Positions 1-59,534 of a DNA stretch of 64,000 nucleotides are shown here, one piece after another. The position numbers and the translations under genes are program-made. The notes under the pieces are model-generated. The model made no database searches and was not told where the DNA came from. It worked only from the letters and a program-made list of their open reading frames with translations. Location of the stretch: contig WYEQ01000014.1 in the NCBI GenBank assembly GCA_009904015.1, positions 1 to 64,000 of the forward strand. Reading direction: 5' to 3'. Origin of the DNA: Desulfurococcales archaeon (GTDB taxonomy: Archaea > Thermoproteota > Thermoprotei_A > Sulfolobales > Fervidicoccaceae). Within the stretch, counting starts at the first letter, position 1. The number at the start of each line of letters is the position of its first letter.

Positions 1-524
<524 letters not shown>

Positions 525-8017: not shown

Positions 8018-8114
8018 TGGGGCCGCCGGGATTTGAACCCGGGACCACCAGCGCTCCGGTGGCTACGGGGAGCACCCCCAGGCTGGCATCCTAGCCAAGC
8101 TAGACGACGGCCCC
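8018..8114 (-). tRNA. tRNA-Pro (GGG) with one intron
   Basis: Acceptor stem GGGGCCG/CGGCCCC with A73, T-arm CCGGG-TTCAAAT-CCCGG and anticodon stem CCAGC/GCTGG are complete. The loop reads C-T-GGG-G, giving anticodon GGG, and an intron of about 22 nt (8054-8075) lies at the canonical 37/38 position. The intron boundary could shift by a base or two because of the G run. CCA is not encoded. Confidence 0.9.
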
Positions 8115-15034: not shown

Positions 15035-15125
<91 letters not shown>

Positions 15126-57791: not shown

Positions 57792-57894
57792 ATATCGAGA
57801 TACTGAGCTCCTAAAAAACATCAGCCTTCATAGGTTGACACAAACCAAACTTTTTTGCCCTACGGGACATAGAGTTGGGCTAATTATTCTAAGC

Positions 57895-58228
57895 TATAGA
57901 AAACTGGAATATTGAATTGACTGGCAACGCGAGAAACAAGGAGTATGGCTAATCATCGTTGAACCAAGAGGGACATCATCAATATGCGCGAAATGCATTG
58001 CGAAATGAAAGAGCCCGGATATAGAGTGCTCAAGTGCCCCCAGATACGGGTTCTAGGCTGATAAAAATGCTGTGGCAGTAATGAACATCGAGATGAAGGC
58101 CCTATTCATGATGGAGGGGAAATCTCTAGCCGCCCAACTGCCCCTCAAATGACAGATGTAGACCCGAACAGACGAGGGGAACCAGCGAACCGCCTAAAAT
58201 AATACCCTCACTCTTCAGGGGGTCAGCC
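57895..58228 (+). pseudogene. tnpB pseudogene fragment with right end of an IS200/IS605-type element
   Basis: The sequence encodes the C-terminal third of TnpB: VEPRGTSSICAKC (first zinc knuckle), a frameshifted stretch with KEPGYRVLKCP (second knuckle), ADKNAVAVMNIEMKALFMMEGKSLAA (third RuvC segment) and, after another shift, TAPQMTDVDPNRRGEPANRLK with TAA at 58200-58202. In-frame stops include TGA after LEY and TAG after YGF. It ends with the right-end hairpin CCCTCACTCTTCAGGGGG and GTCAGC. No tnpA is present. The 57792-57894 stretch before it has no gene. Confidence 0.85.
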
Positions 58229-58265
58229 TTAAACTAAAAAACTAACTTAAACACAAGCCGAGAAG

Positions 58266-58340
58266 TGGGCCCGCGGGGATTTGAACCCCGGACCCCCGGC
58301 TCCGAAGGCCGGTGCCCTATCCTGGCTGGGCTACGGGCCC
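58266..58340 (-). tRNA. tRNA-Arg (TCG)
   Basis: The 75-nt gene has acceptor GGGCCCG/CGGGCCC with A73, D-arm GCCC/GGGC, anticodon stem CCGGC/GCCGG with loop CTTCGGA and T-arm CCGGG-type pairing. No intron, no encoded CCA. G1 (58340) is also the last base of the TAG stop codon of the DUF1611 gene, so the tRNA begins inside that mRNA. Confidence 0.96.
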
Positions 58341-59431
58341 TAATTACTTGATTCTTTGTCTCCCAATATTTCCTTTATTATGTCATTAACTCCGTTTCTG
58401 AGGGGATCCACGGCTGGTATTTGGAGAACGCGTTTGTAGTGGTCTATTGTTTTCTGTGCTTCCTGGATTGACATCTTTGATGTGTTCAGGGTTATGCCCG
58501 CTAGCTTTGCGTTTTGGTATGGATTCAGTGCTTTTAGGTAGAGCAGCTCGTGCTCTGGGGGCGGAACGACTAGGGGCTTGGCTGCGTGGTGGAATGAGGC
58601 TCTGTAAACCCTTGTTGGGTCATGGGCAATTACTATGTGTGTTGGCGAGGCTCCGCGAAGGATTCCCAGGGATACGTGGCCATATGCCTCATGAGTTATG
58701 GCTGCCTGCCCCTCAATAACAGCTGCTCTGCACCCCTCATCGTATAGCTCGATGAGCACCTTCTCTAGAGCTCCTGCCACGAAGTCGCTTGGAACAGCGT
58801 CGAGAACAAGGCCTTTGGCACCCAACATTAGCATTGTCTGGCCAGTCCCAACCATACATGCGTTGTTTCTGGCTTTGGATAGCTCTTGGTAAATAGTGTA
58901 TGTAGCAATGTTCTTACCCGCCTCGCAGTCTGTGCCGGCGATAAGAACCCTTATCATGTCCTTAAGCATGAGGACGCTTCCATCCCAAACCCTGAAGTAG
59001 CTCTTATTCGGCTTCCTGACATCCACGAGCTTTACGCCATGCCTGCTGGCAAGCTCAGCTAAGTAGGTATCATCGGATAAAAACTGGTGAAGACCACTGT
59101 ATATGTCTAGGCCCCCCTTGATAGCATCAATAACAAATTTCCTCCAAGCATCTGGGAGCTTGCCTCCAACAGGCGCAGCCCCGATTAGCAAAGCCTCCGC
59201 TCCAAGCCTAATCGCCTCATCGATGCTGGATATTATTGGGATCTCTCTTCTCCCAATCCCTAGGACCTCGCCAGCATCCCTTCCAGAATGGCGAGAGTCA
59301 ATCACGCCTACCAAGTCCCAGAGAAGACCGCCATTGAAAATCACTAGGTCATGAGCTGTCTTTCCCATCTCCTCGCCAAATGCACCTTCAGCCAGAACAG
59401 CCGCTTTTCTCCTCCCTTGATGATAAATCAT
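58340..59431 (-). CDS. DUF1611 family NAD-binding P-loop protein
   Basis: The 363-residue protein has a Rossmann-like N-terminus (AAVLAEGAFGEEMGKTAHDLVIF) and a dethiobiotin-synthetase-like P-loop domain (VLIAGTDCEAGKNIATYTIYQELSKARNNACMVGTGQTMLMLGAKG). DUF1611 includes DgcN, which functions in D-glutamate catabolism with DgcA in marine bacteria; an archaeal role is not established. ATG 59431 fits the family start; an ATG at 59458 would add nine residues. The TAG stop overlaps tRNA-Arg by one base. Confidence 0.83.
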   Translation of the reverse strand: MIYHQGRRKAAVLAEGAFGEEMGKTAHDLVIFNGGLLWDLVGVIDSRHSGRDAGEVLGIGRREIPIISSIDEAIRLGAEALLIGAAPVGGKLPDAWRKFVIDAIKGGLDIYSGLHQFLSDDTYLAELASRHGVKLVDVRKPNKSYFRVWDGSVLMLKDMIRVLIAGTDCEAGKNIATYTIYQELSKARNNACMVGTGQTMLMLGAKGLVLDAVPSDFVAGALEKVLIELYDEGCRAAVIEGQAAITHEAYGHVSLGILRGASPTHIVIAHDPTRVYRASFHHAAKPLVVPPPEHELLYLKALNPYQNAKLAGITLNTSKMSIQEAQKTIDHYKRVLQIPAVDPLRNGVNDIIKEILGDKESSN

Positions 59432-59534
59432 TGGCAAGCCTCTTTTCGCCTCTAGCACAATAATTATAATTTATGTCTTCGGGAAACAGAATATAACTTA
59501 GTTGTTCCACCCAGGATTAGAGCTGAGAAGCGCT

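Follow-up and report, generated by a model that had tools for sequence, protein, structure and literature searches.

A DUF1611 stop codon shares one base with the only tRNA-Arg(UCG) gene of a Desulfurococcales archaeon: a mild case of tight gene packing

In mitochondrial genomes, tRNA genes punctuate the transcripts: the 5' end of a tRNA completes a stop codon or borders on it, and RNase P cuts at the junction. In bacteria, the tRNA-Sec gene (selC) is found nested in or overlapping selB, an arrangement in which RNase P cleavage would give a nonstop mRNA (Mukai 2021, PMC8124441). The 644 internal start sites of the archaeon Thermococcus kodakarensis include 194 close to the 3' end of an ORF; 90 internal sites serve the gene that follows, and a tRNA-mRNA co-transcript has been reported in which the tRNA occupies the 5'-UTR (PMC4247193). 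The literature searched, outside which most subscription papers fall, yielded no direct report of an archaeal overlap between a stop codon and a tRNA.

The window, a stretch of 64,000 nucleotides, comes from a metagenomic assembly (37 contigs, 1.33 Mb) that is the one source of the junction described here. The organism belongs to an order that includes the Pyrodictiaceae, and its family (f1) has small genomes, one complete member comprising 1,319,206 bases. On the reverse strand, a gene for a DUF1611 (DgcN-like) protein (58340..59437) is followed head-to-tail by the only tRNA-Arg(UCG) gene (58265..58340). The junction reads ...GGA GAC AAA GAA TCA AGT AAT TAG/GGCCCG..., the final G of the TAG stop (58342-58340) lying at 58340 and doubling as G1 of the tRNA. 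Both ARAGORN and Rfam RF00005 (67.3 bits, anticodon TCG) place G1 at 58340, and the 7-bp acceptor stem GGGCCCG/CGGGCCC makes any other placing impossible. Base 58340 is thus common to the coding sequence and the mature tRNA, a 1-nt overlap of same-strand protein and tRNA genes, bearing out the preliminary description on the shared G. On the downstream side of the tRNA, a decayed fragment on the opposite strand (57876-58167, +) resembles the zinc-finger end of an IS605-type TnpB/OrfB, judged by eye from its translation.

The reading frame of the protein gene, which the preliminary description had flagged as possibly misassigned, is certain. Its product matches DUF1611_N (E 3e-31) and DUF1611 (E 7e-57) in Pfam, is closest to DgcN, though at 212.8 bits against an equivalog cut-off of 480, and has Pyrodictiaceae relatives at 54-67% identity. 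Intact relatives, 55-65% identical, end 2-5 residues after an 'IL/IV' motif, compared with 7 residues in this protein; termination at nearly the same residue indicates that the frame is right and that the stop lies near its normal place. The start is probably TTG at 59437 rather than the ATG at 59431, giving an N-terminus MPMIYH comparable to the MPMxYH of relatives.

Compared with the systems above, the locus resembles selB/selC in that a protein ORF and a same-strand tRNA share bases and an RNase P cut would yield a nonstop mRNA, but the bacterial overlap extends up to the whole tRNA and recurs in many genomes, whereas here it amounts to 1 nt in one genome. The mitochondrial likeness lies in a stop codon completed or bordered by a tRNA 5' end with the RNase P site at the junction; mitochondrial transcription, however, is polycistronic and polyadenylation completes the stops, features that would be hypothetical at the present locus. 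In T. kodakarensis, BRE/TATA elements in upstream coding sequence drive the next gene, with starts mapped there by dRNA-seq as against a weak candidate site at this locus.

Within its own genome the arrangement is not exceptional. The assembly holds 40-odd tRNA genes, nearly all single-copy, including five Arg isoacceptors, with tRNA-Arg(UCG) present once. By ORF-based distances, a same-strand stop lies no more than 100 nt upstream of, or overlaps, 16 of 43 tRNAs, and within 10 nt of two: tRNA-Arg(UCG) and tRNA-Arg(CCG), the latter 4 nt after thiI. Against these frequencies, a single 1-nt overlap is unremarkable as a chance draw. Elsewhere in the window, 15035-15125 (-) reads as tRNA-Arg(TCG) if introns are disallowed and as tRNA-Thr(CGT) if they are allowed, an 18-nt intron then following the anticodon; 8018-8114 (-) holds a tRNA of 97 nt whose anticodon is called as four bases (gggg) and which is probably a tRNA-Pro(GGG) with an intron; and an archaeal 16S rRNA, incomplete at the contig end, occupies 1-524 (-).

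The junction was seen in its own genome alone, the genus being represented by one genome in the comparison. Across 40 genomes searched, DUF1611 occurred only here and in three genomes of family f8, with no tRNA next to it in the relatives fetched; conversely, tRNA-Arg(UCG), read in five other f1 genomes, has no gene abutting it there. The conservation across related genomes that marks selB/selC was therefore not found for this overlap, and its absence from relatives makes a conserved regulatory role unlikely. In two Pyrodictiaceae genomes (L042:1598-3073, -, and L036, the latter assigned from a near-identical protein tail only), the arginyl-tRNA synthetase gene is followed after 23-38 nt by tRNA-Arg(UCG), and the two are possibly co-transcribed.

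Since the two genes share base 58340, no promoter fits between them, as had been claimed, and transcription of the tRNA would start inside the coding sequence or rely on read-through followed by RNase P cleavage; these two options were correctly identified earlier. An expectation-maximisation motif derived from 39 other tRNA upstream regions recovered a classical BRE/TATA promoter, AAAAcTTATAAAaC, which in most cases begins 43-36 nt ahead of G1. Upstream BRE/TATA promoters serve archaeal tRNA genes, and the motif before most tRNAs of this genome agrees with the earlier statement that eukaryotic-type internal boxes are not used. Within the DUF1611 coding sequence, the best site in the -46 to -33 start range is a degenerate BRE/TATA-like stretch, AAAGGAAATATTGG (58363..58376, -; 36-23 nt before G1), containing a TATA-like AAATATT at the canonical distance and representing a possible weak promoter. 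Under this small model it scores 3.7 bits (3.0 leave-one-out), near the bottom among the tRNAs of the genome. Against a background of ~395 kb of the same genome, 14-22% of the 351 coding 3' ends score as high or higher, so that the last 60 nt of the gene hold no TATA box beyond chance. Composition is unusual: AT content over the last 45 nt is 73%, a value reached by only 3.7% of coding 3' ends and resembling tRNA upstream regions (mean 72%). The TATA also overlaps the end of the upstream gene at several other tRNAs here (e.g. Ala-CGC, Leu-GAG and Tyr), and upstream stops fall at -35 to -46 for several; together with the internal starts of T. kodakarensis, this indicates that a promoter within a coding 3' end is not unusual. 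A structured leader was rejected: the 161-nt stretch folds no better than shuffles (z 0.24), and the tRNA keeps its acceptor, anticodon and T stems in the fold.

The explanation preferred here, held with modest confidence, is ordinary tight packing with mixed expression. The junction would have arisen within its own lineage, probably by a single rearrangement, as its absence from relatives suggests. Transcription of the tRNA would proceed mainly from the weak TATA within the last ~12 DUF1611 codons, starting a few bases from G1, while read-through of the DUF1611 transcript and trimming by RNase P, whose RNA gene is present in the genome, would contribute some tRNA. RNase P would set the tRNA 5' end, and cutting a read-through transcript would remove the stop of that mRNA copy, leaving an end in UA, a loss presumably tolerated rather than used. 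Demand is compatible with such an economy: CGA, the codon read by this tRNA, occurs 1.9 times per 1000 codons, compared with 26.3 for AGA and 20.3 for AGG. Promoter score increases with codon demand across the tRNAs (Spearman 0.45, p 0.005, leave-one-out), a correlation that loses strength when the three CGN-Arg tRNAs are left out (p 0.06). Because CGA is very rare, a weak or borrowed promoter may be tolerable for tRNA-Arg(UCG), the rarity being measured and its sufficiency surmised.

A possible, though less probable, alternative is that the tRNA lacks a dedicated promoter and depends on RNase P to release it from the DUF1611 mRNA, each tRNA costing one mRNA its stop (UA/G). Archaea use Pelota for stalled ribosomes, and the damage could be limited if the mRNA were translated before cutting or if Pelota rescued the ribosomes; besides the RNase P RNA, the genome encodes two Pelota-family proteins, scoring below the curated cut-off. 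The exosome of Sulfolobus (S. solfataricus) adds A-rich tails (PMC7667871), and such a tail on the cut DUF1611 mRNA could restore UAA by chance. Sole dependence on read-through accords with the lack of a promoter that reaches statistical significance in the coding 3' end, with the low demand for this tRNA and with the T. kodakarensis co-transcript, whose tRNA lies in the 5'-UTR. The weak TATA at the correct distance, the unusually AT-rich tail and the lack of conservation argue against it.

Overlaps in relatives bear on a broader proposal. Directly upstream of tRNA-Arg(CCG), thiI (Pfam ThiI, THUMP) is found in four f1 genera (g1, g3, g4 and g5), with a gap of 4 nt in g1 and 34 nt in g4, an order absent from the f1 genus g2 and from 24 thiI loci of other families; the thiI locus of the present genome lies outside the window (L158, C23:142113-143416). 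The thiI frame of G002 (L161, G002:C1:1117764-1119013, -) stops 15 nt inside the tRNA, and those of G004 (L163), G006 (L160) and G007 (L162/L189) stop 10 nt in, on U8-A9-G10. In all four genomes an [ED]LC motif is retained in the ThiI tail two codons before the tRNA, which makes it appear that the frame is genuinely in use as far as the tRNA. This parallels Dyella and Luteibacter, whose selB stop lies inside the tRNA. ThiI thiolates tRNA position 8, so the stop in three of these genomes includes the very base that the enzyme modifies, and a regulatory role for this overlap can be offered as speculation. Additionally, in two Pyrodictiaceae genomes the frame of a DUF434/DUF5616 gene (L197:133-948, -, and L200:143-892, -) extends into tRNA-Arg(UCU), by 15 and 10 nt. 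Overlapping ORFs before tRNA-Arg at L205 and L227, which look like chance ORFs by eye, and a truncated transporter fragment at L217 were set aside. Tight packing or overlap at tRNA-Arg genes recurs across the order, in a tRNA survey weighted to tRNA-Arg beyond the present genome and G002; the recurrence arises partly because the tRNA 5' end offers stop triplets (UAG at positions 8-10, or TA plus G1). That tRNA maturation in f1 destroys the stop of the neighbouring mRNA, making tRNA and protein alternative products, with thiI/tRNA-Arg(CCG) as a feedback loop and DUF1611/tRNA-Arg(UCG) as its young relative, is considered improbable.

Misassembly, in which a metagenomic contig misjoined DUF1611 at a tRNA-Arg sequence common to several loci, is very unlikely: the genome is split into 37 contigs and, over 74 bases, another four tRNA-Arg genes match this one at 95-97% identity, yet anticodon UCG occurs once and the junction, at the tRNA 5' flank, sits within a contig of 98.6 kb and has ordinary genes to either side. 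Least credible is a regulatory switch making tRNA maturation and DUF1611 synthesis alternatives, for which the geometry, the analogous selB/tRNA-Sec proposal (PMC8124441) and the thiI overlap common to several f1 genomes can be cited, against the occurrence of this junction in one genome only and no known link between DUF1611 and tRNA-Arg.

The overlap of DUF1611 with tRNA-Arg(UCG) is thus genuine, and a mild instance of tight packing. The locus illustrates how tightly archaeal tRNA genes may pack against an upstream protein gene; it also suggests that a weak or borrowed promoter may be enough for a tRNA reading a rare codon. The thiI stop inside tRNA-Arg(CCG) in related genomes, kept in two genera, makes it testable whether RNase P leaves archaeal mRNAs without a stop.
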